Shown one piece after another: positions 932 through 33,365 of a stretch of 64,000 bases of DNA. The notes under the pieces are model-generated. The model was given only the letters and a program-made list of their open reading frames with translations, was not told the origin of the DNA and searched no databases. The stretch covers positions 5,520,150 to 5,584,149 of the forward strand of contig NC_133238.1 of the NCBI RefSeq assembly GCF_040436345.1, in the 5' to 3' direction. The translations under genes and the position numbers were made by a program. This stretch comes from Pagrus major. Taxonomy: Eukaryota; Chordata; Actinopteri; Spariformes; Sparidae. Each line of letters starts with the position of its first letter. The first letter of the stretch is position 1.

Positions 932-1001
932 CTCTGAGGGGATAATAGCAGAGTTAGGTGCCTTGGGCAATTTGCTCATCCTCATTGGGCACTAAAAGTT
1001 G

Positions 1002-10019: not shown

Positions 10020-10146
10020 CAGGGGAGAGCGCGGACGCAGTCCCCCACTACCACAAATTATGCAGTCGAGATTCCCACATTTGGGGAATTCGCAGGGGTC
10101 AGCACAACCGGAGTGCAATGGCTGAGCCTCGCCCTGGGTGAACCAC
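10020..10146 (-). pseudogene. U1 snRNA copy 12, 3' part (nt 38-164), split by LINE copy 1
   Basis: It carries U1 nt 38-164 with no other change seen. The insertion separates it from its promoter and from nt 1-37, so it cannot form normal U1; stem-loop I is destroyed. The element's 3' end abuts nt 38. Confidence 0.96.
10130..10146. repeat. 17-bp target-site duplication, left copy
   Basis: CGCCCTGGGTGAACCAC (U1 nt 54-38 on the plus strand) is repeated at 15405-15421 on the other side of LINE copy 1. Up to 4 bp (CGCC) at the inner edge of the right copy could come from the element, so the true duplication is 13-17 bp. Confidence 0.93.
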
Positions 10147-10336
10147 TTTTCACTTTTTAGAAGCTTTTATTAATTTCAGTCAAAATTAGTTACAGACATA
10201 CATTAATCCCACAATTAAAATTGCCCAACACCAAGTAGATATTCTAATCAAATAAATAATAGTTACATTTCATTCAATAAACATTCTATTCAGCAGTTGT
10301 AACACCAAATAGATGTTCCATTCAGTTTTCTTAATT
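10147..10336 (-). other. 3' UTR of LINE copy 1
   Basis: 190 bp, AT-rich, ending in sense ...AAAAAGTGAAAA against U1 nt 38. The tail has four A residues; copy 2 has five, so the tail length varies by slippage. A CATTT block near 10270 is missing from copy 2. Confidence 0.85.
10166..10171 (-). terminator. Polyadenylation signal AATAAA of LINE copy 1
   Basis: AATAAA in sense orientation, about 20 nt before the element's 3' end, which is the normal spacing for polyadenylation. It would let the element end its own RNA independently of the U1 3' box. The same signal is at 27991-27996 in copy 2. Confidence 0.6.
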
Positions 10337-13300
10337 TTAAAAAAGATCCATTAAAGCAACAGGAATTTTGTCAGTTTTCCACCAGTTTTTCATTTCTTGA
10401 TCATTATACTTAATTCTATCCCTAATGATGTAGTCCCTGACACCTGTAATGCCAACCTTTGCCACAGAATCAGGTGAAATAGAGAGCTTTCTGAAGGCAG
10501 TTAGGTTTCTGCATTTCCAGATACCTTCTTTGACACAGTTGATGATTGCCCACCACCTTTCATTTCTGTCCTTTTCATCTGTCTCAATGTTTCCATATAA
10601 AACATCCATTTCATTAGGGGCTCTAAAAAGGTCTGTTAACCATGGATTTAGAATTTCCCACACTGCCCTTGAAACAGCGCATGACCAAAAGCAGTGGGCC
10701 ACATCTTCACCATCATTACAATTTTTTATTGGACATTTAGCACTACGTGTGCATCGCCTTCTCAGTAAGAAGGCTCTTGTAGGGACACAATTTTGGGCTA
10801 TCTTCCAGGCCAGGTCCTTATGTACATTGAACAAAAATGGTAAGTTTACATTTTTCCAAACTCTGATGCATTTGCTCTCAGGTAGGATACCTACCGGCAC
10901 AAGGCTAGAGGTCGGGGGTGAAAGGCACCCCTCCACATCAACCCTATCTATTTTACCTACCACAGACCAATCTAACTTTGCTACTTTAAAGAGTGTTAAT
11001 GCTCTCTCGTATAGAGCTGGTCTACTTTCAGCATTGGGCGTACAAAGAGAAACCCTTTTACCCTTCCCTCGATACATCATGCGGCCTACCCAAAACTTGG
11101 CAAAATGAAACCAGAGACTGGTATTGCTCTCTGTAAAAACCGCATTTAAAATTGGTGTCAAAAAAAGGGCATCAAATTTGGCCCCCAACTCAGGTACAGC
11201 TTTCCCTCCTTTAACCAGAGGTTTGTACATGATGTCTCTTTTGACATGTTCTTGTTGGGAGCTCCAAATGAATTGAAACATGATGCGTCTCAAAGAGGTC
11301 AGGAATGTCTTGGGAGCTGGCAGAGTGGCTCCCAGAAAGGTCAAAGAGGCCAGAACCTCAGCCTTAATCACCAAAATTTTGCCAGTGAATGTTAGATCCC
11401 TCTCCTCCCACTGAAGCAATTTCCCTTTGATAGCTGGTAATCTTGTTTCCCAATTTATGATTTCCATTCCCTTCCCAATTTCCACTCCCAAAATTTTTAC
11501 CCTCTCTTCTTTTTCAACCAACCCTAAATCAGGCTTTCTTTCTGGCCAATTAAGGTAGAGGATCTCACTTTTGGCCCGGTTCAGTTTGGCCCCAGATGCT
11601 TGAGAAAATTGCTCACTCCACTGGAGGGCTTTAACCATTGAATTATTGCTGGTACAAAGGATTGTCAAGTCATCCATATACAGGGACATTTTAGCCTCCT
11701 TTCCATTACTACCAGGGACAGGAAGGCCCCGAATATCAGTGTCATGTTTTATCCCACAGGCCAGAGGCTCCATGGCTAGTACAAACAGGCTGACTGATAG
11801 CGGGCATCCCTGTCTGACCCCTGACTGGATCTTAATAGGTTCACTGAAGTGGCCATTAATGTTTACTCTACTAGAGCAATCAAAGTACAGTAAATTAATC
11901 CATGCCCTCAACTGTGGGCCAAACCCAAACCTCACCAGTGCTTCTTTGAGATACTCATGGCTTATTCTATCAAAGGCTTTTTCTAAATCCAGGCCAGCAA
12001 TACATAGGGGTACATTGCGATCTAAAGCATACAAGTATGAATCTCTTATTAAAGCAAGGTTATCACTCATGGAGCGACCTGGAACCACACAGGTCTGCTC
12101 GACCCCAACCAACCTCTCTATTACCTCTTGTAGGCGAAGAAAGATTGCTTTTGCTAGAATCTTACGATCAACACCAAGGAGTGTAAGGGGGCGCCAGTTT
12201 TTAAGATCTTTTTTCTCACCTTTCTTAAATAGAAGGGAAATGGTACCTTCCTTTAGGGATGGTGGTAACGACCCTAATTGGAGGCTCTCATTGTACATCT
12301 CCAAAAGAGGGGCCTTTAACTCTGCCCAGAAGGTAGTATAAAATTCTTTTGGCAACCCATCTGCCCCAGGGGCCTTGTTATTTTGCATGCTTTCTACTGC
12401 TTTGGTGAGTTCACTCAGAGATATTTTACTGTCAAGCTTCCCTTTAAATTCGTTAATATTTTTATCTACTTTAGATAGAAGGTTTTCTAAAGCTGTCTTA
12501 TCTAAATCTTCACTTTTGTAAAGATCAGAGTAGAAGGAGTGTACACAACTTAGTATCTCATGTATTTCAGTTTTTTCTTGCCCCTCTTTATTCTTTAATC
12601 CTTCTATAAAGTTTTTAGGCCTAGCTAATTTCCTAAAAAAGTATCTAGAGCATTTTTCATTGTTTTCCATGTGGTGGACTCGGCTACGAATCAGTAGCCC
12701 CCGACTGGCCGCCGTGGAGAGGCGTAACATCTCTCTCTTCAATTGAGCTATATCCTCTGCAACATCTAGCCCGGCATAAGCCATTATATAAAATCTCTGC
12801 AGCTTTGCCTGATATTTCTGGAGCTTCAGACGTCTCTTTTTAGCAGTTCGTTTACCCACCTCTATGAAAAAAGTTTTTGCCCTAATCTTGACTTCTTCCC
12901 ACCATTCCCCCACAGAGTTGAAGGAGGGCTTAAGAGAGAGCCATTGGTTAAGCTTCACCTTAAAATCATTGACCACCTTTGCATCTTGTAGTAGGGAAAT
13001 ATTCAGCTTCCATGAACCTCTACCTTTTTTGATGTTTTCTTTAAACATGAGAGAACATTCAATTTTATGATGGTCAGAGAAAAAAACTGGCGTGACTGCT
13101 GCATCTACAACCTGCAGCCCCCTTGATGTCAACAGAAAGTCTATTCTGGAATGGGTTCTGCCGTTGGACCAGGTATACCCAGGTAAACTCGGATTTTTTA
13201 AGCGGTAAACATCTATCAGTCTAAAATCTTTAATAATGTTTTTTAGGATTTCAGAACTGGAGTCCAGCCTTACTGTGGAGGTGGTTAACTTTTCTTTTTT

Positions 13301-13762
13301 GCTTACCAAGCAGTTGAAATCGCCACCCAGAATGACCTCTCTGTTACACAACAAAAGGGGTTGTAATTCTTTGAGCACTGTTAACCGTTCTCGGAGCTCA
13401 ACAGGGCAATACACATTGATTACTCTTAACTTAGCGTTAAACAGTGAAACATCAACACATAGAATTCTCCCATCTATCACACGTTGTACCTTCTGGATGA
13501 TAAAATCATGCCCTCTAAATAATACTGCAACCCCTGAAGATCTGTTTTTGTTGTCGCCTGACCATACTGATGGGCCGTGGCTCCATCTCTCCTCGAAGAC
13601 CTTGTAATTCTCTCTATAGGATACATTACATTCTTGAAGTAGGAAGATGTCATTACCCTCTGAGTGTAGAAAAGTGAAGGCTGATGAGCACTTTACTGGG
13701 TCATTTAGTCCTCTAGTATTGAGGGATGCTATAGAGAGAGGAGCCATAGAAGTGCAGTTCAA
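10337..13762 (-). CDS. LINE ORF2: APE endonuclease / reverse transcriptase (copy 1, open)
   Basis: 1141 aa, uninterrupted. It nicks target DNA and reverse-transcribes the element RNA from the exposed 3' end. N-terminal APE domain: SLNTRGL (13-19), LLQE with catalytic E44, GGDFN (146-150), RIDFLL with D208, SDHH (229-232). Reverse transcriptase: NNKAPGADGLP (461-471), LDLEKAFD (591-598; D592), SGVRQGCPLS (647-656) and the catalytic YMDD (695-698). A C-terminal zinc motif has C1010, C1015, H1023 and C1028. All the key residues are present, so the enzyme may be active. It starts 40 bp after the ORF1 stop, so translation would need reinitiation or a similar route. YMDD is less usual than F/YADD in LINEs. 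Confidence 0.95.
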   Translation of the reverse strand: MNCTSMAPLSIASLNTRGLNDPVKCSSAFTFLHSEGNDIFLLQECNVSYRENYKVFEERWSHGPSVWSGDNKNRSSGVAVLFRGHDFIIQKVQRVIDGRILCVDVSLFNAKLRVINVYCPVELRERLTVLKELQPLLLCNREVILGGDFNCLVSKKEKLTTSTVRLDSSSEILKNIIKDFRLIDVYRLKNPSLPGYTWSNGRTHSRIDFLLTSRGLQVVDAAVTPVFFSDHHKIECSLMFKENIKKGRGSWKLNISLLQDAKVVNDFKVKLNQWLSLKPSFNSVGEWWEEVKIRAKTFFIEVGKRTAKKRRLKLQKYQAKLQRFYIMAYAGLDVAEDIAQLKREMLRLSTAASRGLLIRSRVHHMENNEKCSRYFFRKLARPKNFIEGLKNKEGQEKTEIHEILSCVHSFYSDLYKSEDLDKTALENLLSKVDKNINEFKGKLDSKISLSELTKAVESMQNNKAPGADGLPKEFYTTFWAELKAPLLEMYNESLQLGSLPPSLKEGTISLLFKKGEKKDLKNWRPLTLLGVDRKILAKAIFLRLQEVIERLVGVEQTCVVPGRSMSDNLALIRDSYLYALDRNVPLCIAGLDLEKAFDRISHEYLKEALVRFGFGPQLRAWINLLYFDCSSRVNINGHFSEPIKIQSGVRQGCPLSVSLFVLAMEPLACGIKHDTDIRGLPVPGSNGKEAKMSLYMDDLTILCTSNNSMVKALQWSEQFSQASGAKLNRAKSEILYLNWPERKPDLGLVEKEERVKILGVEIGKGMEIINWETRLPAIKGKLLQWEERDLTFTGKILVIKAEVLASLTFLGATLPAPKTFLTSLRRIMFQFIWSSQQEHVKRDIMYKPLVKGGKAVPELGAKFDALFLTPILNAVFTESNTSLWFHFAKFWVGRMMYRGKGKRVSLCTPNAESRPALYERALTLFKVAKLDWSVVGKIDRVDVEGCLSPPTSSLVPVGILPESKCIRVWKNVNLPFLFNVHKDLAWKIAQNCVPTRAFLLRRRCTRSAKCPIKNCNDGEDVAHCFWSCAVSRAVWEILNPWLTDLFRAPNEMDVLYGNIETDEKDRNERWWAIINCVKEGIWKCRNLTAFRKLSISPDSVAKVGITGVRDYIIRDRIKYNDQEMKNWWKTDKIPVALMDLF

Positions 13763-13802
13763 AGGGGTGAAGAGGGTTAGTTCAGTGACAACTATGTAAC
13801 AT

Positions 13803-15341
13803 CTACTTTTTCTTAATTATCTTCTTTTTCTTTGGTTTCACATCTCTTTCCACCTTTCTTGACATGTCTTTTATCTGTGTTGTAGATGTAAAAGCAACTA
13901 CAACATCTTGCTCAAGAAAGGGGTTTGATGTGGGGGAGGAAACGGGCCAGTTGGAATGAGGTAACACAGAAGAGGTCGAGGGGGAGGATTCACCTGATGG
14001 GGGGGACTCATTTACCCGTTTTCTTGAAGGAGAGTCCACTGTGTCTGGTACCAAGGTGGTGGCAATGGGAAGGGGCAAAGAGGTCAGTAAGGACTGGGAG
14101 GCATCTTCAGCCCGTTCCATGGAGGTCTGGGAGCTGGGATCTGGCACTGATGCAAGGTTGACTGTAGATGTTGACCTCGGGCGTTGGCCATCCAATGATG
14201 AGGAGGCAGATGAGTCTGGTCCCTGATGGATGGTGATGATTGGCAGCAGGGATGTTGAGCCCTCAACTTCCTCGAAGAGAGAATTGGCCGTTGGTTCTTG
14301 TTTCAAGGTAGCTGCATGAGGAGAGATGCTAGCCAGCAGGTTGTCCAGACGGTTCCCTGCCTCCTGTAGAGTCATCGGTGTCAACTCTGTCCTTGAGCTG
14401 GAGCCAGGTTCGGGAGGATGGTCTGCTTGATGGAAAGCAGTGAGGTCCATTGTGGAGGCAGGGGAGTTGAACGCTTCGTCGTCATTCTCTAATAGCCCAG
14501 CGCTCCAGTCCAAGACTCGTGTTCCCTCTTGTACCTCCTCCTCCAGGTCCAACACCGGTTCTTCACTTGGCTGTTGGAGTGCAGGGCCAGATGGCTGTCG
14601 CACTGGGCTTGTATGTTGAGAGGGCGCCTGATTGTTGCCAGAGTTTTCAGCAATGTGGTCTTGGCCTAAAGAAACAATTGATCTTACTGTGGACAGTTTC
14701 AGCCGGTTGGAGTATGCTTGAGGGCAGTCTTTAAAGCGATGTTGGGCTGAGGCACAGAGATTGCATTTTACAGGGGTTGGACATTGGGCTGTTGTATGGT
14801 CGAATGCTTTGCAGTTCCTGCAGATGTCCACCGTACATGCAGCAGCCAGATGTTCTAGGCTGCCGCATTTACGACATTCTTTTGGCTGACCAGAGTAGAA
14901 CACAGACCCTCTGAAGGCTCCCAACTGGATGGTGCTTGGGAGATGCTGGAGGACCCCCTGTCGCCTTATGAGACGCACTTGAAATCGTCTGGTGCCTGTC
15001 TTGATTCCATCTATGTCAACAACTTCCATGGCATGAATCACCTCACAGTACCGAGCCATCCATGTCCAAACATCCTGGTTCCTGACTCTCTCAGAGAAAA
15101 TCATTACATGTACTGTTTTCAGGTCTCTCTCTGCCAAAGGTGACATAATAATGTTCTTGAAGCTTGTTGTTGACTTTTTCTTGATTTCAAACTTTTCCAG
15201 GCAACTTTCGTAGTATCGTGTTGTTGTAAATATCACCTCAAAGATCTTCTTACCCGGAAATGCAAAAACGTAGTCAAGCTGGTTGGTGGAAATGCCAAGT
15301 TCTTTTTGCAAAATCTGTCTGCTGAATTGCAGCCGGTCCAT
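13803..15341 (-). CDS. LINE ORF1: triple zinc-knuckle RNA-binding protein (copy 1, first codon lost)
   Basis: 512 aa from the first available Met, which is codon 24 of the copy 2 protein. The frame is open further upstream to the junction at 15404 and, without an ATG, on through U1 nt 1-54, so the element is fused in frame to U1 sequence. The insertion starts exactly at ORF1 codon 2, so the native start is missing. Three CX2CX4HX4C knuckles and a lysine-rich C-terminus match copy 2. Whether Met24 gives a working protein is unknown. Confidence 0.88.
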   Translation of the reverse strand: MDRLQFSRQILQKELGISTNQLDYVFAFPGKKIFEVIFTTTRYYESCLEKFEIKKKSTTSFKNIIMSPLAERDLKTVHVMIFSERVRNQDVWTWMARYCEVIHAMEVVDIDGIKTGTRRFQVRLIRRQGVLQHLPSTIQLGAFRGSVFYSGQPKECRKCGSLEHLAAACTVDICRNCKAFDHTTAQCPTPVKCNLCASAQHRFKDCPQAYSNRLKLSTVRSIVSLGQDHIAENSGNNQAPSQHTSPVRQPSGPALQQPSEEPVLDLEEEVQEGTRVLDWSAGLLENDDEAFNSPASTMDLTAFHQADHPPEPGSSSRTELTPMTLQEAGNRLDNLLASISPHAATLKQEPTANSLFEEVEGSTSLLPIITIHQGPDSSASSSLDGQRPRSTSTVNLASVPDPSSQTSMERAEDASQSLLTSLPLPIATTLVPDTVDSPSRKRVNESPPSGESSPSTSSVLPHSNWPVSSPTSNPFLEQDVVVAFTSTTQIKDMSRKVERDVKPKKKKIIKKK

Positions 15342-15404
15342 CTGAAGATCTTCCAGAAGGTCGAAGCGGACAGCATTCCTGCGGTTGGCTTGATTGTTTC
15401 CTAA

Positions 15405-15421
15405 CGCCCTGGGTGAACCAC
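15405..15421. repeat. 17-bp target-site duplication, right copy
   Basis: This matches 10130-10146. It is followed directly by the rest of U1 (nt 37 down to 1), confirming that a single U1 gene was split. Confidence 0.93.
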
Positions 15422-15458
15422 CTTCTTGATCATGGTATCTCCCCTGCCAGGTAAGTAT
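15405..15458 (-). pseudogene. U1 snRNA copy 12, 5' part (nt 1-54), split by LINE copy 1
   Basis: U1 nt 1-54 with the intact upstream region (upstream dinucleotide TG) run directly into LINE ORF1. Transcription from this U1 promoter would give a U1-LINE chimera rather than U1. Confidence 0.95.
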
Positions 15459-16103
15459 GAGTTGGAACAGTCTGACACAGGATGGCCTTTCCCAGGCTCA
15501 GCCCCCTGGCTGACGGTGCCTCTTGGGGGATAATAGCAGAGTTAGGTGCCTTGGGCAATTTGCTCATCCTCATTGGGCACTAAAAGTTGCTGCAAATTCA
15601 AAAACACTGGTGCGACTTGACGAGGGTGGCTGGTCCACACATTGTGCCTGTTTTGTGTCCTTTTTCCAGCGATCCATCGCTCGGCAAAATAGAAAAATAA
15701 CACTCCGTCAACGGCCACTTGGCATGATGTCTCCGCCCAGTCTGAATGCAACCAGAGACAATGTGCCGCACAAAAGCCTACCAGTAGGCATTCCAGCAAT
15801 GGACGCGTCCAGACCACATTTCTTATGCAATGCCTCGCAGAGGAGGAGACGCAACAAGGTTTGTGCCGTCTCTAGCAGGCCACGCCCACTCTGCCCTTTT
15901 ACCGGGAAAACGGGTAACCCGCACGCAACGCACTGCGACACAGCAGACGCCGGTGTACTGCAACGCTGTGACTTTCAGGACGGATTGAAACGGTAACACA
16001 AGGACCCCAAAGCAGCATTCAGAGGTTGAAGGTTGGCTTTCCGAGCTGCTCGGCAGAAAGCGCGGGAGACGAGCACTCATTTGTTTTTCTTCCACATTGT
16101 CAT

Positions 16104-16267
16104 CAGGGGAGAGCGCGGACGCAGTCCCCCACTACCACAAATTATGCAGTCGAGATTCCCACATTTGGGGAATTCGCAGGGGTCAGCACAACCGGAGTGC
16201 AATGGCTGAGCCTCGCCCTGGGTGAACCACCTTCTTGATCATGGTATCTCCCCTGCCAGGTAAGTAT
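16104..16267 (-). ncRNA. RNU1: U1 snRNA copy 13
   Basis: Full length. 3'-box T allele; upstream GG; upstream spacer B-type (GGACGTGTCC near 16612). Confidence 0.96.
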
Positions 16268-16912
16268 GAGTTGGAACAGTCTGACACAGGATGGCCTTTC
16301 CCAGGCTCAGCCCCCTGGCTGACGGTGCCTCTGGGGGGATAATAGCAGAGTTAGGTGCCTTGGGCAATTTGCTCATCCTCATTGGGCACTAAAAGTTGCT
16401 GCAAATTCAAAAACACTGGTGCGACTTGACGAGGGTGGCTGGTCCACACATTGTGCCTGTTTTGTGTCCTTTTTCCAGCGATCCATCGCTCGGCAAAATA
16501 GAAAAATAACACTCCGTCAACGGCCACTTGGCATGATGTCTCCGCCCAGTCTGAATGCAACCAGAGACAATGTGCCGCACAAAAGCCTACCAGTAGGCAT
16601 TCCAGCAATGGACGTGTCCAGACCACATTTCTTATGCAATGCCTCGCAGAGGAGGAGACGCAACAAGGTTTGTGCCGTCTCTAGCAGGCCACGCCCACTC
16701 TGCCCTTTTACCGGGAAAACGGGTAACCCGCACGCAACGCACTGCGACACAGCAGACGCCGGTGTACTGCAACGCTGTGACTTTCAGGACGGATTGAAAC
16801 GGTAACACAAGGACCCCAAAGCAGCATTCAGAGGTTGAAGGTTGGCTTTCCGAGCTGCTCGGCAGAAAGCGCGCCAGACGAGCACTCACTTGTTTTTCTT
16901 CCACATTGTCAT

Positions 16913-17076
16913 CAGGGGAGAGCGCGGACGCAGTCCCCCACTACCACAAATTATGCAGTCGAGATTCCCACATTTGGGGAATTCGCAGGGGTCAGCACAA
17001 CCGGAGTGCAATGGCTGAGCCTCGCCCTGGGTGAACCACCTTCTTGATCATGGTATCTCCCCTGCCAGGTAAGTAT
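16913..17076 (-). ncRNA. RNU1: U1 snRNA copy 14
   Basis: Full length. CC allele in the 3' flank; upstream TG; upstream spacer with GAGGGGGGCTGG near 17240. Confidence 0.96.
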
Positions 17077-17721
17077 GAGTTGGAACAGTCTGACACAGGA
17101 TGGCCTTTCCCAGGCTCAGCCCCCTGGCTGACGGTGCCTCTTGGGGGATAATAGCAGAGTTAGGTGCCTTGGGCAATTTGCTCATCCTCATTGGGCACTA
17201 AAAGTTGCTGCAAATTCAAAAACACTGGTGCGACTTGACGAGGGGGGCTGGTCCACACATTGTGCCTGTTTTGTGTCCTTTTTCCAGCGATCCATCGCTC
17301 GGCAAAATAGAAAAATAACACTCCGTCAACGGCCACTTGGCATGATGTCTCCGCCCAGTCTGAATGCAACCAGAGACAATGTGCCGCACAAAAGCCTACC
17401 AGTAGGCATTCCAGCAATGGACGCGTCCAGACCACATTTCTTATGCAATGGCTCGCAGAGGAGGAGACGCAACAAGGTTTGTGCCGTCTCTAGCAGGCCA
17501 CGCCCACTCTGCCCTTTTACCGGGAAAACGGGTAACCCGCACGCAACGCACTGCGACACAGCAGACGCCGGTGTACTGCAACGCTGTGACTTTCAGGACG
17601 GATTGAAACGGTAACACAAGGACCCCAAAGCAGCATTCAGAGGTTGAAGGTCGGCTTTCCGAGCTGCTCGGCAGAAAGCGCGGGAGACGAGCACTCACTT
17701 GTTTTTCTTCCACATTGTCAT

Positions 17722-17885
17722 CAGGGGAGAGCGCGGACGCAGTCCCCCACTACCACAAATTATGCAGTCGAGATTCCCACATTTGGGGAATTCTCAGGGG
17801 TCAGCACAACCGGAGTGCAATGGCTGAGCCTCGCCCTGGGTGAACCACCTTCTTGATCATGGTATTTCCCCTGCCAGGTAAGTAT
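17722..17885 (-). ncRNA. RNU1: U1 snRNA copy 15, G20A and C92A variant
   Basis: Full length, with two changes not seen in other copies: G20A (plus-strand T at 17866) beside stem-loop I and C92A (T at 17794) at the base of stem-loop III. Upstream TG. It is the most diverged uninterrupted U1 here and could be a minor variant or on its way to a pseudogene. Confidence 0.93.
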
Positions 17886-18530
17886 GAGTTGGAACAGTCT
17901 GACACAGGATGGCCTTTCCCAGGCTCAGCCCCCTGGCTGACGGTGCCTCTTGGGGGATAATAGCAGAGTTAGGTGCCTTGGGCAATTTGCTCATCCTCAT
18001 TGGGCACTAAAAGTTGCTGCAAATTCAAAAACACTGGTGCGACTTGACGAGGGTGGCTGGTCCACACATTGTGCCTGTTTTGTGTCCTTTTTCCAGCGAT
18101 CCATCGCTCGGCAAAATAGAAAAATAACACTCCGTCAACGGCCACTTGGCATGATGTCTCCGCCCAGTCTGAATGCAACCAGAGACAATGTGCCGCACAA
18201 AAGCCTACCAGTAGGCATTCCAGCAATGGACGCGTCCAGACCACATTTCTTATGCAATGCCTCGCAGAGGAGGAGACGCAACAAGGTTTGTGCCGTCTCT
18301 AGCAGGCCACGCCCACTCTGCCCTTTAACCGGGAAAACGGGTAACCCGCACGCAACGCACTGCGACACAGCAGACGCCGGTGTACTGCAACGCTGTGACT
18401 TTCAGGACGGATTGAAACGGTAACACAAGGACCCCAAAGCAGCATTCAGAGGTTGAAGGTCGGCTTTCCGAGCTGCTCGGCAGAAAGCGCGGGAGACGAG
18501 CACTCACTTGTTTTTCTTCCACATTGTCAT

Positions 18531-18694
18531 CAGGGGAGAGCGCGGACGCAGTCCCCCACTACCACAAATTATGCAGTCGAGATTCCCACATTTGGGGAAT
18601 TCGCAGGGGTCAGCACAACCGGAGTGCAATGGCTGAGCCTCGCCCTGGGTGAACCACCTTCTTGATCATGGTATCTCCCCTGCCAGGTAAGTAT
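18531..18694 (-). ncRNA. RNU1: U1 snRNA copy 16
   Basis: Full length. Upstream TG. Its 3' flank has a private T-to-A change near 18327. Confidence 0.96.
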
Positions 18695-19339
18695 GAGTTG
18701 GAACAGTCTGACACAGGATGGCCTTTCCCAGGCTCAGCCCCCTGGCTGACGGTGCCTCTTGGGGGATAATAGCAGAGTTAGGTGCCTTGGGCAATTTGCT
18801 CATCCTCATTGGGCACTAAAAGTTGCTGCAAATTCAAAAACACTGGTGCGACTTGACGAGGGTGGCTGGTCCACACATTGTGCCTGTTTTGTGTCCTTTT
18901 TCCAGCGATCCATCGCTCGGCAAAATAGAAAAATAACACTCCGTCAACGGCCACTTGGCATGATGTCTCCGCCCAGTCTGAATGCAACCAGAGACAATGT
19001 GCCGCACAAAAGCCTACCAGTAGGCATTCCAGCAATGGACGTGTCCAGACCACATTTCTTATGCAATGCCTCGCAGAGGAGGAGACGCAACAAGGTTTGT
19101 GCCGTCTCTAGCAGGCCACGCCCACTCTGCCCTTTTACCGGGAAAACGGGTAACCCGCACGCAACGCACTGCGACACAGCAGACGCCGGTGTACTGCAAC
19201 GCTGTGACTTTCAGGACGGATTGAAACGGTAACACAAGGACCCCAAAGCAGCATTCAGAGGTTGAAGGTTGGCTTTCCGAGCTGCTCGGCAGAAAGCGCG
19301 GGAGACGAGCACTCACTTGTTTTTCTTCCACATTGTCAT

Positions 19340-19503
19340 CAGGGGAGAGCGCGGACGCAGTCCCCCACTACCACAAATTATGCAGTCGAGATTCCCACAT
19401 TTGGGGAATTCGCAGGGGTCAGCACAACCGGAGTGCAATGGCTGAGCCTCGCCCTGGGTGAACCACCTTCTTGATCATGGTATCTCCCCTGCCAGGTAAG
19501 TAT
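19340..19503 (-). ncRNA. RNU1: U1 snRNA copy 17
   Basis: Full length. Upstream TG; upstream spacer with GAGGGGGGCTGG near 19668. Confidence 0.96.
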
Positions 19504-20148
19504 GAGTTGGAACAGTCTGACACAGGATGGCCTTTCCCAGGCTCAGCCCCCTGGCTGACGGTGCCTCTTGGGGGATAATAGCAGAGTTAGGTGCCTTGGG
19601 CAATTTGCTCATCCTCATTGGGCACTAAAAGTTGCTGCAAATTCAAAAACACTGGTGCGACTTGACGAGGGGGGCTGGTCCACACATTGTGCCTGTTTTG
19701 TGTCCTTTTTCCAGCGATCCATCGCTCGGCAAAATAGAAAAATAACACTCCGTCAACGGCCACTTGGCATGATGTCTCCGCCCAGTCTGAATGCAACCAG
19801 AGACAATGTGCCGCACAAAAGCCTACCAGTAGGCATTCCAGCAATGGACGCGTCCAGACCACATTTCTTATGCAATGCCTCGCAGAGGAGGAGACGCAAC
19901 AAGGTTTGTGCCGTCTCTAGCAGGCCACGCCCACTCTGCCCTTTTACCGGGAAAACGGGTAACCCGCACGCAACGCACTGCGACACAGCAGACGCCGGTG
20001 TACTGCAACGCTGTGACTTTCAGGACGGATTGAAACGGTAACACAAGGACCCCAAAGCAGCATTCAGAGGTTGAAGGTCGGCTTTCCGAGCTGCTCGGCA
20101 GAAAGCGCGGGAGACGAGCACTCACTTGTTTTTCTTCCACATTGTCAT

Positions 20149-23153: not shown

Positions 23154-23798
23154 GAGTTGGAACAGTCTGACACAGGATGGCCTTTCCCAGGCTCAGCCCC
23201 CTGGCTGACGGTGCCTCTTGGGGGATAATAGCAGAGTTAGGTGCCTTGGGCAATTTGCTCATCCTCATTGGGCACTAAAAGTTGCTGCAAATTCAAAAAC
23301 ACTGGTGCGACTTGACGAGGGGGGCTGGTCCACACATTGTGCCTGTTTTGTGTCCTTTTTCCAGCGATCCATCGCTCGGCAAAATAGAAAAATAACACTC
23401 CGTCAACGGCCACTTGGCATGATGTCTCCGCCCAGTCTGAATGCAACCAGAGACAATGTGCCGCACAAAAGCCTACCAGTAGGCATTCCAGCAATGGACG
23501 CGTCCAGACCACATTTCTTATGCAATGCCTCGCAGAGGAGGAGACGCAACAAGGTTTGTGCCGTCTCTAGCAGGCCACGCCCACTCTGCCCTTTTACCGG
23601 GAAAACGGGTAACCCGCACGCAACGCACTGCGACACAGCAGACGCCGGTGTACTGCAACGCTGTGACTTTCAGGACGGATTGAAACGGTAACACAAGGAC
23701 CCCAAAGCAGCATTCAGAGGTTGAAGGTCGGCTTTCCGAGCTGCTCGGCAGAAAGCGCGGGAGACGAGCACTCACTTGTTTTTCTTCCACATTGTCAT

Positions 23799-23962
23799 CA
23801 GGGGAGAGCGCGGACGCAGTCCCCCACTACCACAAATTATGCAGTCGAGATTCCCACATTTGGGGAATTCGCAGGGGTCAGCACAACCGGAGTGCAATGG
23901 CTGAGCCTCGCCCTGGGTGAACCACCTTCTTGATCATGGTATCTCCCCTGCCAGGTAAGTAT
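23799..23962 (-). ncRNA. RNU1: U1 snRNA copy 22
   Basis: Full length. Upstream TG; private change TTTCACAGG near 23994 about 35 bp upstream of the start; upstream spacer B-type. Confidence 0.96.
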
Positions 23963-24607
23963 GAGTTGGAACAGTCTGACACAGGATGGCCTTTCACAGG
24001 CTCAGCCCCCTGGCTGACGGTGCCTCTTGGGGGATAATAGCAGAGTTAGGTGCCTTGGGCAATTTGCTCATCCTCATTGGGCACTAAAAGTTGCTGCAAA
24101 TTCAAAAACACTGGTGCGACTTGACGAGGGTGGCTGGTCCACACATTGTGCCTGTTTTGTGTCCTTTTTCCAGCGATCCATCGCTCGGCAAAATAGAAAA
24201 ATAACACTCCGTCAACGGCCACTTGGCATGATGTCTCCGCCCAGTCTGAATGCAACCAGAGACAATGTGCCGCACAAAAGCCTACCAGTAGGCATTCCAG
24301 CAATGGACGTGTCCAGACCACATTTCTTATGCAATGCCTCGCAGAGGAGGAGACGCAACAAGGTTTGTGCCGTCTCTAGCAGGCCACGCCCACTCTGCCC
24401 TTTTACCGGGAAAACGGGTAACCCGCACGCAACGCACTGCGACACAGCAGACGCCGGTGTACTGCAACGCTGTGACTTTCAGGACGGATTGAAACGGTAA
24501 CACAAGGACCCCAAAGCAGCATTCAGAGGTTGAAGGTTGGCTTTCCGAGCTGCTCGGCAGAAAGCGCGCCAGACGAGCACTCACTTGTTTTTCTTCCACA
24601 TTGTCAT

Positions 24608-24771
24608 CAGGGGAGAGCGCGGACGCAGTCCCCCACTACCACAAATTATGCAGTCGAGATTCCCACATTTGGGGAATTCGCAGGGGTCAGCACAACCGGA
24701 GTGCAATGGCTGAGCCTCGCCCTGGGTGAACCACCTTCTTGATCATGGTATCTCCCCTGCCAGGTAAGTAT
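24608..24771 (-). ncRNA. RNU1: U1 snRNA copy 23
   Basis: Full length. CC allele in the 3' flank; upstream TG. Confidence 0.96.
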
Positions 24772-25416
24772 GAGTTGGAACAGTCTGACACAGGATGGCC
24801 TTTCCCAGGCTCAGCCCCCTGGCTGACGGTGCCTCTTGGGGGATAATAGCAGAGTTAGGTGCCTTGGGCAATTTGCTCATCCTCATTGGGCACTAAAAGT
24901 TGCTGCAAATTCAAAAACACTGGTGCGACTTGACGAGGGTGGCTGGTCCACACATTGTGCCTGTTTTGTGTCCTTTTTCCAGCGATCCATCGCTCGGCAA
25001 AATAGAAAAATAACACTCCGTCAACGGCCACTTGGCATGATGTCTCCGCCCAGTCTGAATGCAACCAGAGACAATGTGCCGCACAAAAGCCTACCAGTAG
25101 GCATTCCAGCAATGGACGCGTCCAGACCACATTTCTTATGCAATGCCTCGCAGAGGAGGAGACGCAACAAGGTTTGTGCCGTCTCTAGCAGGCCACGCCC
25201 ACTCTGCCCTTTTACCGGGAAAACGGGTAACCCGCACGCAACGCACTGCGACACAGCAGACGCCGGTGTACTGCAACGCTGTGACTTTCAGGACGGATTG
25301 AAACGGTAACACAAGGACCCCAAAGCAGCATTCAGAGGTTGAAGGTTGGCTTTCCGAGCTGCTCGGCAGAAAGCGCGGGAGACGAGCACTCATTTGTTTT
25401 TCTTCCACATTGTCAT

Positions 25417-25580
25417 CAGGGGAGAGCGCGGACGCAGTCCCCCACTACCACAAATTATGCAGTCGAGATTCCCACATTTGGGGAATTCGCAGGGGTCAGC
25501 ACAACCGGAGTGCAATGGCTGAGCCTCGCCCTGGGTGAACCACCTTCTTGATCATGGTATCTCCCCTGCCAGGTAAGTAT
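25417..25580 (-). ncRNA. RNU1: U1 snRNA copy 24
   Basis: Full length. 3'-box T allele; upstream GG; private GCGTTAG near 25662; upstream spacer B-type. Confidence 0.96.
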
Positions 25581-26225
25581 GAGTTGGAACAGTCTGACAC
25601 AGGATGGCCTTTCCCAGGCTCAGCCCCCTGGCTGACGGTGCCTCTGGGGGGATAATAGCAGCGTTAGGTGCCTTGGGCAATTTGCTCATCCTCATTGGGC
25701 ACTAAAAGTTGCTGCAAATTCAAAAACACTGGTGCGACTTGACGAGGGTGGCTGGTCCACACATTGTGCCTGTTTTGTGTCCTTTTTCCAGCGATCCATC
25801 GCTCGGCAAAATAGAAAAATAACACTCCGTCAACGGCCACTTGGCATGATGTCTCCGCCCAGTCTGAATGCAACCAGAGACAATGTGCCGCACAAAAGCC
25901 TACCAGTAGGCATTCCAGCAATGGACGTGTCCAGACCACATTTCTTATGCAATGCCTCGCAGAGGAGGAGACGCAACAAGGTTTGTGCCGTCTCTAGCAG
26001 GCCACGCCCACTCTGCCCTTTTACCGGGAAAACGGGTAACCCGCACGCAACGCACTGCGACACAGCAGACGCCGGTGTACTGCAACGCTGTGACTTTCAG
26101 GACGGATTGAAACGGTAACACAAGGACCCCAAAGCAGCATTCAGAGGTTGAAGGTTGGCTTTCCGAGCTGCTCGGCAGAAAGCGCGCCAGACGAGCACTC
26201 ACTTGTTTTTCTTCCACATTGTCAT

Positions 26226-26389
26226 CAGGGGAGAGCGCGGACGCAGTCCCCCACTACCACAAATTATGCAGTCGAGATTCCCACATTTGGGGAATTCGCA
26301 GGGGTCAGCACAACCGGAGTGCAATGGCTGAGCCTCGCCCTGGGTGAACCACCTTCTTGATTATGGTATCTCCCCTGCCAGGTAAGTAT
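26226..26389 (-). ncRNA. RNU1: U1 snRNA copy 25, G28A variant
   Basis: Full length with G28A (plus-strand T at 26362), as in copies 3 and 30. CC allele in the 3' flank; upstream TG with GAGGGGGGCTGG. Confidence 0.95.
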
Positions 26390-27034
26390 GAGTTGGAACA
26401 GTCTGACACAGGATGGCCTTTCCCAGGCTCAGCCCCCTGGCTGACGGTGCCTCTTGGGGGATAATAGCAGAGTTAGGTGCCTTGGGCAATTTGCTCATCC
26501 TCATTGGGCACTAAAAGTTGCTGCAAATTCAAAAACACTGGTGCGACTTGACGAGGGGGGCTGGTCCACACATTGTGCCTGTTTTGTGTCCTTTTTCCAG
26601 CGATCCATCGCTCGGCAAAATAGAAAAATAACACTCCGTCAACGGCCACTTGGCATGATGTCTCCGCCCAGTCTGAATGCAACCAGAGACAATGTGCCGC
26701 ACAAAAGCCTACCAGTAGGCATTCCAGCAATGGACGCGTCCAGACCACATTTCTTATGCAATGCCTCGCAGAGGAGGAGACGCAACAAGGTTTGTGCCGT
26801 CTCTAGCAGGCCACGCCCACTCTGCCCTTTTACCGGGAAAACGGGTAACCCGCACGCAACGCACTGCGACACAGCAGACGCCGGTGTACTGCAACGCTGT
26901 GACTTTCAGGACGGATTGAAACGGTAACACAAGGACCCCAAAGCAGCATTCAGAGGTTGAAGGTTGGCTTTCCGAGCTGCTCGGCAGAAAGCGCGGGAGA
27001 CGAGCACTCATTTGTTTTTCTTCCACATTGTCAT

Positions 27035-27198
27035 CAGGGGAGAGCGCGGACGCAGTCCCCCACTACCACAAATTATGCAGTCGAGATTCCCACATTTGGG
27101 GAATTCGCAGGGGTCAGCACAACCGGAGTGCAATGGCTGAGCCTCGCCCTGGGTGAACCACCTTCTTGATCATGGTATCTCCCCTGCCAGGTAAGTAT
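27035..27198 (-). ncRNA. RNU1: U1 snRNA copy 26
   Basis: Full length. 3'-box T allele; upstream TG. It is the last intact U1 before LINE copy 2. Confidence 0.96.
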
Positions 27199-27843
27199 GA
27201 GTTGGAACAGTCTGACACAGGATGGCCTTTCCCAGGCTCAGCCCCCTGGCTGACGGTGCCTCTTGGGGGATAATAGCAGAGTTAGGTGCCTTGGGCAATT
27301 TGCTCATCCTCATTGGGCACTAAAAGTTGCTGCAAATTCAAAAACACTGGTGCGACTTGACGAGGGGGGCTGGTCCACACATTGTGCCTGTTTTGTGTCC
27401 TTTTTCCAGCGATCCATCGCTCGGCAAAATAGAAAAATAACACTCCGTCAACGGCCACTTGGCATGATGTCTCCGCCCAGTCTGAATGCAACCAGAGACA
27501 ATGTGCCGCACAAAAGCCTACCAGTAGGCATTCCAGCAATGGACGCGTCCAGACCACATTTCTTATGCAATGCCTCGCAGAGGAGGAGACGCAACAAGGT
27601 TTGTGCCGTCTCTAGCAGGCCACGCCCACTCTGCCCTTTTACCGGGAAAACGGGTAACCCGCACGCAACGCACTGCGACACAGCAGACGCCGGTGTACTG
27701 CAACGCTGTGACTTTCAGGACGGATTGAAACGGTAACACAAGGACCCCAAAGCAGCATTCAGAGGTTGAAGGTCGGCTTTCCGAGCTGCTCGGCAGAAAG
27801 CGCGGGAGACGAGCACTCACTTGTTTTTCTTCCACATTGTCAT

Positions 27844-27970
27844 CAGGGGAGAGCGCGGACGCAGTCCCCCACTACCACAAATTATGCAGTCGAGATTCCC
27901 ACATTTGGGGAATTCGCAGGGGTCAGCACAACCGGAGTGCAATGGCTGAGCCTCGCCCTGGGTGAACCAC
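27844..27970 (-). pseudogene. U1 snRNA copy 27, 3' part (nt 38-164), split by LINE copy 2
   Basis: U1 nt 38-164 cut off from its promoter. The break after nt 38 is at the same base as in copy 12. Confidence 0.96.
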
Positions 27971-28156
27971 TTTTTCACTTTTTAGAAGCTTTTATTAATT
28001 TCAGTCAAAATTAGTTACAGACATACATAAATCACACAATTACAATTACCCAACACCAAGTAGATATTCTAATCAAATAAATAATAGTTACATTCAATAA
28101 ACATTCCATTCAGCAGTTGTAACATCAAATAGATGTTCCATTCAGTTTCCTTAATT
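27971..28156 (-). other. 3' UTR of LINE copy 2
   Basis: 186 bp with AATAAA at 27991-27996 on the minus strand and five A residues at the tail. It lacks a short CATTT block that copy 1 has near 10270. Confidence 0.85.
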
Positions 28157-31100
28157 TTAAAAAAGATCCATTAAAGCAACAGGAATTTTGTCAGTTTTCC
28201 ACCAATTTTTCATTTCTTGATCATTATACTTAATTCTATCCCTAATGATGTAGTCCCTGACACCTGTAATGCCAACCTTTGCCACAGAATCAGGTGAAAT
28301 AGAGAGCTTTCTGAAGGCAGTTAGGTTTCTGCATTTCCAGATACCTTCTTTGACACAGTTGATGATTGCCCACCACCTTTCATTTCTGTCCTTTTCATCT
28401 GTCTCAATGTTTCCATATAAAACATCCATTTCATTAGGGGCTCTAAAAAGGTCTGTTAACCATGGTTTTACAATTTCCCACACTGCCCTTGAAACAGCGC
28501 ATGACCAAAAGCAGTGAGCCACATCTTCACCATCATTACAATTTTTTTTGGACATTTAGCACTACGTGTGCATCGCCTTCTCAGCAAGAAGGCTCTTGTA
28601 GGGACACAATTTTGGGCTATCTTCCAGGCCAGGTCCTTATGTACATTGAACAAAAATGGTAAGTTTACATTTTTCCAAACTCTGATGCATTTGCTCTCAG
28701 GTAGGATACCTACCGGCACAAGGCTAGAGGTCGGGGGTGAAAGGCACCCCTCCACATCAACCCTATCTATTTTACCTACCACGGACCAATCTAACTTTGC
28801 TACTTTAAAGAGTGTTAATGCTCTCTCGTATAGAGCTGGTCTACTTTCAGCATTGGGCGTACAAAGAGAAACCCTTTTACCCTTCCCTCTATACATCATG
28901 CGGCCTACCCAAAACTTGGCAAAATGAAACCAGAGACTGGTATTGCTCTCTGTAAAAACAGCATTCAAAATTGGTGTCAAAAAAAGGGCATCAAATTTGG
29001 CCCCCAACTCAGGTACAGCTTTCCCTCCTTTAACCAGAGGTTTGTACATGATGTCTCTTTTGACATGTTCTTGTTGGGAGCTCCAAATGAATTGAAACAT
29101 GATGCGTCTCAAAGAGGTCAGGAATGTCTTGGGAGCTGGCAGAGTGGCCGCCAGAAAGGTCAAAGAGGCCAGAACCTCAGCCTTAATCACCAAAATTTTG
29201 CCAGTGAATGTTAGATCCCTCTGCTCCCACTGAAGCAATTTTCCTTTGATAGCTGGTAGTCTTGCTTCCCAATTTATTATTTCCATTCCCTTCCCAATTT
29301 CCACTCCCAAAATTTTTACTCTCTCTTCTTTTTCAACTAACCCTAAATCAGGCTTTCTTTCTGGCCAATTAAGGTAGAGGATCTCACTCTTGGCCCGGTT
29401 CAGTTTGGCCCCAGATGCTTGAGAAAATTGCTCACTCCACTGGAGGGCTTTAACCATTGAATTATTGCTGGTACAAAGGATTGTCAAGTCATCCATATAC
29501 AGGGACATTTTAGCCTCCTTTCCATTACTACCAGGGACAGGAAGGCCCCGAATATCAGTGTCATGTTTTATCCCACAGGCCAGAGGCTCCATGGCTAGTA
29601 CAAACAGGCTGACTGATAGCGGGCATCCCTGTCTGACCCCTGCCTGGATCTTAATAGGTTCACTGAAGTGGCCATTAATGTTTACTCTACTAGAGCAATC
29701 AAAGTACAGTAAATTAATCCATGCCCTCAACTGTGGGCCGAACCCAAACCTCACCAGTGCTTCTTTGAGATACTCATGGCTTATTCTATCAAAGGCTTTT
29801 TCTAAATCCAGGCCAGCAATACATAGGGGTACATTGCGATCTAAAGCATACAAGTATGAATCTCTTATTAAAGCAAGGTTATCACTCATGGAGCGACCTG
29901 GAACCACACAGGTCTGCTCGACCCCAACCAACCTCTCTATCACCTCTTGTAGGCGAAGAAAGATTGCTTTTGCTAGAATCTTACGATCAACACCAAGGAG
30001 TGTAAGGGGGCGCCAGTTTTTAAGATCTTTTTTTTCACCTTTCTTGTATAGAAGGGAAATGGTACCTTCCTTTAGGGATGGTGGTAACGACCCTAATTGG
30101 AGGCTCTCATTGTACATCTCCAAAAGAGGGGCCTTTAACTCTGCCCAGAAGGTAGTATAAAATTCTTTTGGCAACCCATCTGCCCCAGGGGCCTTGTTAT
30201 TTTGCATGCTTTCTACTGCTTTGGTGAGTTCACTCAGAGATATTTTACTGTCAAGCTTCCCTTTAAATTCGTTAATATTTTTATCTACTTTAGAAAGAAG
30301 GTTTTCTAAAGCTGTCTTATCTAAATCTTCACTTTTGTAAAGATCAGAGTAGAAGGAGTGTACACAACTTAGTATCTCATGTATTTCAGTTTTTTCTTGT
30401 CCCTCTTTATTCTTTAATCCTTCTATAAAGTTTTTAGGCCTAGCTAATTTCCTAAAAAAGTATCTAGAGCATTTTTCATTGTTTTCCATGTGGTGGACTC
30501 GGCTACGAATCAGTAGCCCCCGACTGGCCGCCGTGGAGAGGCGTAACATCTCTCTCTTCAATTGAGCTATATCCTCTGCAACATCTAGCCCGGCATAAGC
30601 CATTATATAAAATCTCTGCAGCTTTGCCTGATATTTCTGGAGCTTCAGACGTCTCTTTTTAGCAGTTCGTTTACCCACCTCTATGAAAAAAGTTTTTGCC
30701 CTAATCTTGACTTCTTCCCACCATTCCCCCACAGAGTTGAAGGAGGGCTTAAGAGAGAGCCATTGGTTAAGCTTCACCTTAAAATCATTGACCACCTTTG
30801 CATCTTGTAGTAGGGAAATATTCAGCTTCCATGAACCTCTACCTTTTTTGATGTTTTCTTTAAACATGAGAGAACATTCAATTTTATGATGGTCAGAGAA
30901 AAAAACTGGCGTGACTGCTGCATCTACAACCTGCAGCCCCCTTGATGTCAACAGAAAGTCTATTCTGGAATGGGTTCTGCCGTTGGACCAGGTATACCCA
31001 GGTAAACTCGGATTTTTTAAGCGGTAAACATCTATCAGTCTAAAATCTTTAATAATGTTTTTTAGGATTTCAGAACTGGAGTCCAGCCTTACTGTGGAGG

Positions 31101-31581
31101 TGGTTAACTTTTCTTTTTTGCTTACCAAGCAGTTGAAATCGCCACCCAGAATGACCTCTCTGTTACACAACAAAAGGGGTTGTAATTCTTTGAGCACTGT
31201 TAACCGTTCTCGGAGCTCAACAGGGCAATACACATTGATTACTCTTAACTTAGCGTTAAACAGTGAAACATCAACACATAGAATTCTCCCATCTATCACA
31301 CGTTGTACCTTCTGGATGATAAAATCATGCCCTCTAAATAATACTGCAACCCCTGAAGATCTGTTTTTGTTGTCGCCTGACCATACTGATGGGCCGTGGC
31401 TCCATCTCTCCTCGAAGACCTTGTAATTCTCTCTATAGGATACATTACATTCTTGAAGTAGGAAGATGTCATTACCCTCTGAGTGTAGAAAAGTGAAGGC
31501 TGATGAGCACTTTACTGGGTCATTTAGTCCTCTAGTATTGAGGGATGCTATAGAGAGAGGAGCCATAGAAGTGCAGTTCAA
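28157..31581 (-). pseudogene. LINE ORF2, copy 2, frameshifted near the C-terminus
   Basis: Residues 1 to about 1011 match copy 1, including all the endonuclease and reverse transcriptase residues. A one-base loss in a T run near 28548 (eight T where copy 1 has TTTTTTATT) shifts the frame. Translation then ends at 28468 after 26 unrelated residues, losing three of the four CCHC zinc ligands and the last 130 or so residues. Substitutions relative to copy 1 include F512Y, S647A, T-to-A in NWETRLP, E-to-Q in QWEERDL and G-to-A in TFLGATLP. The element probably cannot move by itself. Confidence 0.93.
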
Positions 31582-31621
31582 AGGGGTGAAGAGGGTTAGT
31601 TCAGTGACAACTATGTAACAT

Positions 31622-33229
31622 CTACTTTTTCTTAATTATCTTCTTTTTCTTTGGTTTCACATCTCTTTCCACCTTTCTTGACATGTCTTTTATCTGTGTT
31701 GTAGATGTAAAAGCAACTACAACATCTTGCTCAAGAAAGGGGTTTGATGTGGGGGAGGAAACGGGCCAGTTGGAATGAGGTAACACAGAAGAGGTCGAGG
31801 GGGAGGATTCACCTGATGGGGGGGACTCATTTACCCGTTTTCTTGAAGGAGAGTCCACTGTGTCTGGTACCAAGGTGGTGGCAATGGGAAGGGGCAAAGA
31901 GGTCAGTAAGGACTGGGAGGCATCTTCAGCCCGTTCCATGGAGGTCTGGGAGCTGGGATCTGGCACTGATGCAAGGTTGACTGTAGATGTTGACCTCGGG
32001 CGCTGGCCATCCAATGATGAGGAGGCAGATGAGTCTGGTCCCTGATGGATGGTGATGATTGGCAGCAGGGATGTTGAGCCCTCAACTTCCTCGAAGAGAG
32101 AATTGGCCGTTGGTTCTTGTTTCAAGGTAGCTGCATGAGGAGAGATGCTAGCCAGCAGGTTGTCCAGACGGTTCCCTGCCTCCTGTAGAGTCATCGGTGT
32201 CAACTCTGTCCTTGAGCTGGAGCCAGGTTCGGGAGGATGGTCTGCTTGATGGAAAGCAGTGAGGTCCATTGTGGAGGCAGGGGAGTTGAACGCTTCGTCG
32301 TCATTCTCTAATAGCCCAGCGCTCCAGTCCAAGACTCGTGTTCCCTCTTGTACCTCCTCCTCCAGGTCCAACACCGGTTCTTCACTTGGCTGTTGGAGTG
32401 CAGGGCCAGATGGCTGTCGCACTGGGCTTGTATGTTGAGAGGGCGCCTGATTGTTGCCAGAGTTTTCAGCAATGTGGTCTTGGCCTAAAGAAACAATTGA
32501 TCTTACTGTGGACAGTTTCAGCCGGTTGGAGTATGCTTGAGGGCAGTCTTTAAAGCGATGTTGGGCTGAGGCACAGAGATTGCATTTTACAGGGGTTGGA
32601 CATTGGGCTGTTGTATGGTCGAATGCTTTGCAGTTCCTGCAGATGTCCACCGTACATGCAGCAGCCAGATGTTCTAGGCTGCCGCATTTACGACATTCTT
32701 TTGGCTGACCAGAGTAGAACACAGACCCTCTGAAGGCTCCCAACTGGATGGTGCTTGGGAGATGCTGGAGGACCCCCTGTCGCCTTATGAGACGCACTTG
32801 AAATCGTCTGGTGCCTGTCTTGATTCCATCTATGTCAACAACTTCCATGGCATGAATCACCTCACAGTACCGAGCCATCCATGTCCAAACATCCTGGTTC
32901 CTGACTCTCTCAGAGAAAATCATTACATGTACTGTTTTCAGGTCTCTCTCTGCCAAAGGTGACATAATAATGTTCTTGAAGCTTGTTGTTGACTTTTTCT
33001 TGATTTCAAACTTTTCCAGGCAACTTTCGTAGTATCGTGTTGTTGTAAATATCACCTCAAAGATCTTCTTACCCGGAAATGCAAAAACGTAGTCAAGCTG
33101 GTTGGTGGAAATGCCAAGTTCTTTTTGCAAAATCTGTCTGCTGAATTGCAGCCGGTCCATCTGAAGATCTTCCAGAAGGTCGAAGCGGACAGCATTCCTG
33201 CGGTTGGCTTGATTGTTTCCTAACGCCAT
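31622..33229 (-). CDS. LINE ORF1: triple zinc-knuckle RNA-binding protein (copy 2, complete)
   Basis: 535 aa. ORF1 proteins of this kind coat the element RNA to form the retrotransposition particle. Three CX2CX4HX4C knuckles: C179-C182-H187-C192, C197-C200-H205-C210 and C216-C219-H224-C229. Residues 90-165 form a compact region before the knuckles, as in ZCCHC3-like proteins and Tx1-clade ORF1. Residues 240-520 are Ser/Pro/Thr/Glu-rich and look disordered; the end is a lysine run. The start is chosen at 33229 because it is the first in-frame ATG after an in-frame open 5' UTR boundary and has a strong context (A at -3, G at +4). The stop is 40 bp before ORF2. Confidence 0.94.
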   Translation of the reverse strand: MALGNNQANRRNAVRFDLLEDLQMDRLQFSRQILQKELGISTNQLDYVFAFPGKKIFEVIFTTTRYYESCLEKFEIKKKSTTSFKNIIMSPLAERDLKTVHVMIFSERVRNQDVWTWMARYCEVIHAMEVVDIDGIKTGTRRFQVRLIRRQGVLQHLPSTIQLGAFRGSVFYSGQPKECRKCGSLEHLAAACTVDICRNCKAFDHTTAQCPTPVKCNLCASAQHRFKDCPQAYSNRLKLSTVRSIVSLGQDHIAENSGNNQAPSQHTSPVRQPSGPALQQPSEEPVLDLEEEVQEGTRVLDWSAGLLENDDEAFNSPASTMDLTAFHQADHPPEPGSSSRTELTPMTLQEAGNRLDNLLASISPHAATLKQEPTANSLFEEVEGSTSLLPIITIHQGPDSSASSSLDGQRPRSTSTVNLASVPDPSSQTSMERAEDASQSLLTSLPLPIATTLVPDTVDSPSRKRVNESPPSGESSPSTSSVLPHSNWPVSSPTSNPFLEQDVVVAFTSTTQIKDMSRKVERDVKPKKKKIIKKK

Positions 33230-33331
33230 GCTGGTCCTCTGGCCAGAAAGGAGCCGGTATGATATAGCCGCCGACGCTATTTACTTTATTGTGCCCCATA
33301 CACCGCTCGACAACAATAGAGTCAGTTGATC
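33230..33331 (-). other. 5' UTR of LINE copy 2
   Basis: 102 bp between U1 nt 34 and the ORF1 ATG. It holds an upstream ATG at 33299 that opens a 68-codon frame overlapping the ORF1 start, which could lower ORF1 translation. I see no convincing internal promoter in so short a leader. Confidence 0.8.
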
Positions 33332-33365
33332 CTTGATCATGGTATCTCCCCTGCCAGGTAAGTAT
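33332..33365 (-). pseudogene. U1 snRNA copy 27, 5' part (nt 1-34), split by LINE copy 2
   Basis: U1 nt 1-34 with the intact upstream region (TG) lead straight into the LINE 5' UTR. Nt 35-37 are absent. The promoter could drive a full-length LINE RNA with a 34-nt U1 leader. Confidence 0.94.

Follow-up and report, generated by a model that had tools for sequence, protein, structure and literature searches.

A tandem array of U1 snRNA genes in Pagrus major very probably harbors a currently or recently active LINE, related to Keno, whose APE-type endonuclease nicks U1 genes between nucleotides (nt) 37 and 38. The copies of this element, hereafter the U1 LINE, share a base-exact 3' junction and a single orientation, vary in their 5' junctions, are confined to the U1 array within the genome, and encode the domains described below. 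We analyzed a window of 64,000 nt (C24:5520150-5584149, contig NC_133238.1 of the 786-Mb, 25-contig assembly GCF_040436345.1), surveyed the array in the fetched stretch C24:5420001-5680000, and numbered U1 from the first base of its Rfam match.

The window contains 59 Rfam matches to U1, all on the minus strand, comprising 57 complete genes and two interrupted ones, the latter being low-scoring matches at 10020-10192 and 27844-27981. The whole array covers ~203 kb and runs from C24:5638752 to a 100-N gap near position 5436126; because it touches this assembly gap, our counts of U1 genes and LINEs are lower bounds. Full-length U1 genes number 174 in C24:5420001-5680000, of which 157 are identical to the reference copy, and U1 genes account for about 14% of the array sequence. 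The 1223-bp units (window positions 1912-2741 and 11 similar places) stem from a duplicated 414-bp spacer stretch. An array terminus is formed by a U1 fragment that begins exactly at nt 89 with CTGCGAAT, the apparent duplication of the DNA transposon Dada-U1 (L024:8677-8752), and TTTGCAC lies 17 nt before this fragment. Further on, a DUF6729 region (L025:2019-2612) and an 839-aa frame with no Pfam match (L025:4085-6604) were observed, and the segment C24:5638677-5650000 is probably a Dada-U1-type DNA transposon situated between the U1 and U2 arrays.

Table 1. Features of the U1 array and of LINE copies A and B in the window (positions within the 64,000-nt stretch).
Feature	Position	Strand	Remark
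U1 tandem array, LINE target	707..63393	-	809-bp and 1223-bp units
U1 nt 38-164, downstream of copy A	10020..10146	-	Rfam match and junction reading
LINE copy A, 5258 nt	10147..15404	-	5'-truncated by about 100 nt
ORF2 frame of copy A	10337..13816	-	1159 codons open: APE endonuclease, RT, zf-RVT
ORF1 of copy A	13803..15341	-	from first remaining ATG
U1 nt 1-54, upstream of copy A	15405..15458	-	
U1 nt 38-164, downstream of copy B	27844..27970	-	Rfam match and junction reading
LINE copy B, 5361 nt	27971..33331	-	full length
ORF2 of copy B	28468..31581	-	frame broken towards C-terminus
ORF1 of copy B, 535 aa	31622..33229	-	two ZCCHC3-type RNA-binding domains and CCHC knuckle
U1 nt 1-34, upstream of copy B	33332..33365	-	nt 35-37 missing

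The initial annotation described two near-identical LINEs in separate U1 genes, with the same orientation, a common 3' junction between nt 37 and 38, and unlike 5' junctions. This description is accurate in each part: copies A and B are alike at all but 35 of 5252 aligned bases, both lie on the minus strand, both carry an A tail followed by U1 nt 38, and A joins after U1 nt 54 whereas B joins after nt 34. The target site duplication of copy A corresponds to U1 nt 38-54, the last four bases of which, GGCG, also match the element. The original ORF1 start of this copy was lost through its 5' truncation.

Across the array, nine interrupted U1 genes, one of them holding two truncated copies in tandem, provide ten LINE 3' ends. 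All ten consist of GCTTCTAAAAAGTG and 4, 5 or 7 A residues, and all abut U1 nt 38 in the sense of U1 (C24:5420001-5680000); in the tandem pair, GTGGTTCACCCA (U1 nt 38-49) separates the first 3' end from the second copy. A base-exact 3' junction in a defined target, as in target-specific non-LTR retrotransposons, is thus present at ten of ten readable 3' ends. Flanks mostly unrelated to U1, named beforehand as the observation that would speak against site-specific nicking, were not encountered among them, and the decayed relatives of the element have no readable 3' end.

Genome-wide searches gave the same picture. The whole-assembly search with the LINE 3' end that had been proposed at the outset (a 201-base query including 17 U1 bases, all first-look candidates scored) returned ten matches, every one inside the U1 array, and all ten LINE copies within the array sit in U1 genes. 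A pattern search for U1 nt 38-57 preceded by a base other than G at nt 37 gave nine matches, all at LINE-bearing loci (reversed control, 0), and a search for U1 nt 20-34 followed by a non-A base gave six, all at full-length copies. No near-identical ORF1 or ORF2 was found outside the U1 array in genome searches in which all first-look candidates were scored; a further search, in which 40 of 4736 candidates were scored, likewise placed near-identical matches in the array alone, and its list is a lower bound. Among U1 genes on other contigs (C2, C10, C13 and C22), the comparison covered C2, where four of four genes were read without insertion and are the same as the array genes over nt 1-129; a weak genome match between them spans 58 residues at 29%. 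The original claim of sequence-specific first-strand nicking in U1 is supported, as the best reading of these sequences, by the 3' junction being exact in 10 of 10 cases and by the absence of near-identical copies outside the array in the searches as scoped above.

The proteins of the U1 LINE are compatible with such a mode of insertion. ORF1 contains PF23057, PF23058 and PF00098, that is, two ZCCHC3-type RNA-binding domains and a CCHC knuckle. ORF2 contains an N-terminal APE endonuclease (Exo_endo_phos), a reverse transcriptase (RT) and a zf-RVT match slightly under the curated cut-off (27.1 vs 27.5 bits), and its Pfam matches include no restriction-like endonuclease domain. Of the six full-length copies, three have both frames open, one contains a stop, and in two the frames are broken. 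The best solved relatives are L1 ORF2 proteins. The PDB entries LTX and LR1 (2v0r, 2v0s), which we take to be loop-swapped L1 variants, were rejected as Tx1/R1 references, since, when aligned, they match L1 endonuclease nearly throughout.

A second array begins about 10 kb past the U1 array (C24:5648459-5680000, L025-L028; plus strand), and in its 918-bp tandem units U2 and U5 genes alternate. This array contains a Keno-type LINE with 35% ORF2 identity to the U1 LINE over 1102 columns and 40% identity over ORF1 residues 9-260; PF23057, PF23058 and PF00098 are common to both ORF1 proteins. At the 3' junction of the Keno-type LINE an A tail is followed by TCTGTTCTTATCAGTTTAAT in all three copies of the fetched part, which places the junction at U2 nt 38 or 39, as A38 may belong to the tail. 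Full-length copies join after U2 nt 26 in both cases where the 5' end was read. The section of PMC6136364 that describes Keno gives its target as U2 snRNA genes, with insertion before TCTGTTCTTATCAGTTTAAT, and calls it Tx1-type. The Keno-type LINE of the U2-U5 array has exactly this target. The U1 LINE shares with Keno an APE-type endonuclease and an RT, and its target is U1 in 10 of 10 cases; on account of this Keno-like working combined with a different target, we assign it to a related lineage whose target is new. The U1 LINE is therefore a U1-specific relative of Keno and not Keno itself.

The proposed phylogenetic placement of ORF2 was carried out with LINEs of the same genome, in an RT tree of eight rows, two of which (L039 and L040) overlap the RT stretch only partly. 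In this tree the U1 LINE groups with the U2-targeting Keno-type LINE, at a support of 88/90 (ultrafast bootstrap / SH-aLRT) that falls under the 95/80 mark of the tool. Taken together with the relation to Keno and with ORF1, this eight-row, same-genome tree makes membership of the U1 LINE in the Tx1 clade likely. An ORF2 search of IMG/VR and GTDB contigs yielded no confirmed relative. The genome contains 28 matches to PF23058 (all 36 candidates scored), all on C24, of which 22 lie at 5.44-5.82 Mb (a region holding the U1 array and the beginning of the U2-U5 array) and six at 1.85-2.05 Mb; insertion sites were sought in the fetched DNA, which lies outside the 5.68-5.80 Mb stretch and the copies at 1.85-1.89 Mb. 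Matches at C24:1.846-1.869 Mb and 5.794-5.816 Mb, 3.9 Mb apart, mirror each other on opposite strands with equal or nearly equal scores, suggesting an inverted duplication or an inversion with shared ends.

The neighboring LINE bears on the question of how the site is chosen. The chromatin or promoter complex of snRNA genes could contribute to this choice in addition to the DNA sequence, a reading that we regard as improbable. Measured from the transcription start, the nick is at 37 nt in U1 and at 37-38 nt in U2, an agreement within 1 nt that has a chance probability of about 0.016, and the two sites are no more alike in sequence than chance allows (position pairs doing equally well make up a fraction of 0.11 to 0.97 depending on the stretch compared, and of 0.13 by gapped local score). 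However, this coincidence was noticed post hoc and has two data points, the base-exact cut suggests direct recognition of DNA, and Dada-U1 uses a different site in U1. As the similarity of the two targets does not exceed chance, we also discarded target sequence similarity between U1 and U2 as the cause of target switching.

The 5' junctions fall into several types. In all six full-length copies the junction follows U1 nt 34 and nt 35-37 are missing; four of them have TATCAACTG there and two have GATCAACTG. Copies A and c5471 join after U1 nt 54 at element base ~103, with nt 38-54 duplicated. The two truncated tandem copies join after U1 nt 43 (element base ~4989, a 6-bp duplication of nt 38-43) and after nt 49 (element base ~4455, an 11-12 bp duplication of nt 38-49), respectively, so that both duplications within this one U1 gene begin at nt 38. 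From the tandem pair we had considered that U1 from nt 38 onward suffices as a target. Insertion of the downstream copy before the other would mean that the later one entered an ordinary stretch of U1 nt 1-49, so that no sequence past nt 49 is required; in the reverse order, the boundary between LINE tail and nt 38 was itself a target. As the pair can be read either way, the idea was dropped.

Not all of these copies are independent. Copy B (cB5553) and c5491 show no substitution in 5359 bases and have nearly identical flanking spacers; they look like array duplicates. Copies A and c5471 have the 5' junction and the spacer haplotype upstream in common, yet 37 of 5253 bases in their bodies are different, which indicates exchange between copies. 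Two LINE body types occur in the array, differing mainly in the 3' half (after element base about 2900), and two of the 5' junction types are found with both body types, a further sign of exchange. The number of distinguishable insertion events is thus not ten but between four (5' junctions alone) and seven (junction, first base, tail and body type). Under uniform insertion into an 809-bp unit on either strand (2 x 809 sites), a simple formula gives a probability of 2e-10 that four independent events coincide. Because tandem copies may descend from one another, copies A and B, from which the initial annotation had argued, were by themselves insufficient as proof.

Such exchange is what would be needed if a single LINE had entered a U1 gene by chance and had then been multiplied by unequal exchange and gene conversion, the truncated forms being later rearrangements. 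The identity of B and c5491 and the junction and haplotype common to A and c5471 demonstrate that exchange occurs. Nevertheless, we consider this course of events very unlikely: the truncated copies retain upstream U1 nt 35-37, which are absent from the full-length copies; duplications always start at nt 38, so that rearrangement must have mimicked target duplications several times; and the adjoining Keno-type LINE behaves alike in U2. An artefact of assembling a long, near-identical array that has one 100-N gap at its low edge is hardly credible, given that the copies differ in substitutions, tail lengths and spacer haplotypes and that the broken-junction pattern recurs at nine places.

The preferred reading, sequence-specific nicking of U1 genes, can be formulated as a series of steps. 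The APE-type endonuclease of ORF2 would nick the bottom strand of a U1 gene between nt 37 and 38, and the A-tailed RNA of the element would be reverse-transcribed from the nick (target-primed reverse transcription). Joining at the 5' end would be imprecise, with full-length copies attached at nt 34 and losing nt 35-37 and truncated copies leaving duplications of 6-17 bp. From the sequence data we infer that the site-specific nick is made by ORF2 itself and that there are active copies. The U1 array, being large and redundant, represents a refuge for the element, as each insertion costs a single gene out of about 180.

Relatives outside the array point to a possible link with U1 transcription. 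The decayed relatives L032, L033 and L036 (C24:2.02-2.03 and 5.81 Mb) have no U1 in the fetched DNA. Another relative at C24:2.05 Mb, 53-55% identical to the U1 LINE, has an ORF1 frame open over 524 codons and an ORF2 that is lost after about residue 366-387; a search of about 11.7 kb past the break did not recover its 3' half. At its 5' end this relative has a head made of U1 nt 3-48 with no mismatch, and in the entire genome a U1 fragment broken before nt 3 occurs once and one broken after nt 48 occurs once, both at this locus. The head adjoins no U1 promoter. Instead it abuts a decayed U2/U5 unit with 68% identity, the end of which consists of U2 nt 1-26 and a few Keno-like bases. These features suggest a retro-inserted U1::LINE transcript generated by read-through from a U1 promoter. 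The same head could arise if a LINE hit a U1 pseudogene or if the template was switched to U1 RNA.

More generally, the LINE might be expressed from the host U1 promoter as a cotranscript of a U1 5' fragment and the LINE, with the C24:2.05 Mb relative as an off-target, retro-inserted cotranscript; we put this forward tentatively and think it somewhat doubtful. U1 nt 1-34 stay in place upstream of the full-length copies, and the 5' UTR of the LINE is 102 nt long, leaving little room for a promoter of its own. On the other hand, T or G precedes ATCAACTG in full-length copies, and this variable base looks like an untemplated one added after the LINE's own transcript start. If the cotranscript reading is true, the lineage would be a parasite of U1 transcription as well as of U1 genes.

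A U1-specific retrotransposon adds a target to those of such elements. Its co-occurrence with a U2-specific relative in the neighboring array of the same contig makes a shift of endonuclease specificity between RNA genes testable, and U1, as a conserved and highly repeated site, may be of use in targeted insertion work. In the pages of PMC4640811 that treat these elements (2015), Dada-U1 is named the sole U1-targeting transposon then reported. Our search of the openly licensed PMC literature found no U1-targeting LINE; a name for it may exist in Repbase or Dfam, which lie beyond that search.

Among known systems, Keno is the closest in organization. Compared via the Keno-type LINE of this genome, Keno and the U1 LINE have in common an APE endonuclease, an RT and zf-RVT in ORF2 and two ZCCHC3-type domains with a CCHC knuckle in ORF1. 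The Keno-type LINE also resembles the U1 LINE in its base-exact 3' junction in a multicopy snRNA gene, its short A tail and the loss of target bases at the 5' junction of full-length copies, whereas the target is U2 in one and U1 in the other. Mutsu (5S rRNA), Tx1 and Kibi, presumably of the same clade, reportedly have other targets. Both Keno and Utopia are given as U2-targeting elements in PMC4640811, which assigns to Utopia a restriction-like endonuclease. Utopia is thus similar to the U1 LINE in its snRNA gene target and exact 3' boundary but differs in the type of endonuclease, which is APE in the U1 LINE. Dada-U1 is a DNA transposon of U1 genes with the apparent duplication CTGCGAAT, for which the account in PMC3706591 prefers GCGAAT. 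In this genome CTGCGAAT corresponds to U1 nt 89-96; Dada-U1 and the U1 LINE therefore both insert in U1 genes, at different sites and as a DNA transposon and a LINE, respectively. The U1 head of the C24:2.05 Mb relative has a counterpart in SINEU elements, which are said to possess an snRNA-derived 5' head and to be linked to Tx1-type LINEs. SINEU elements of crocodilians are characterized, in a title within the reference list of PMC5753468, as SINEs with snRNA-derived heads. Both have an snRNA-derived 5' head, but SINEU elements are SINEs, whereas the C24:2.05 Mb relative is a LINE with ORFs.
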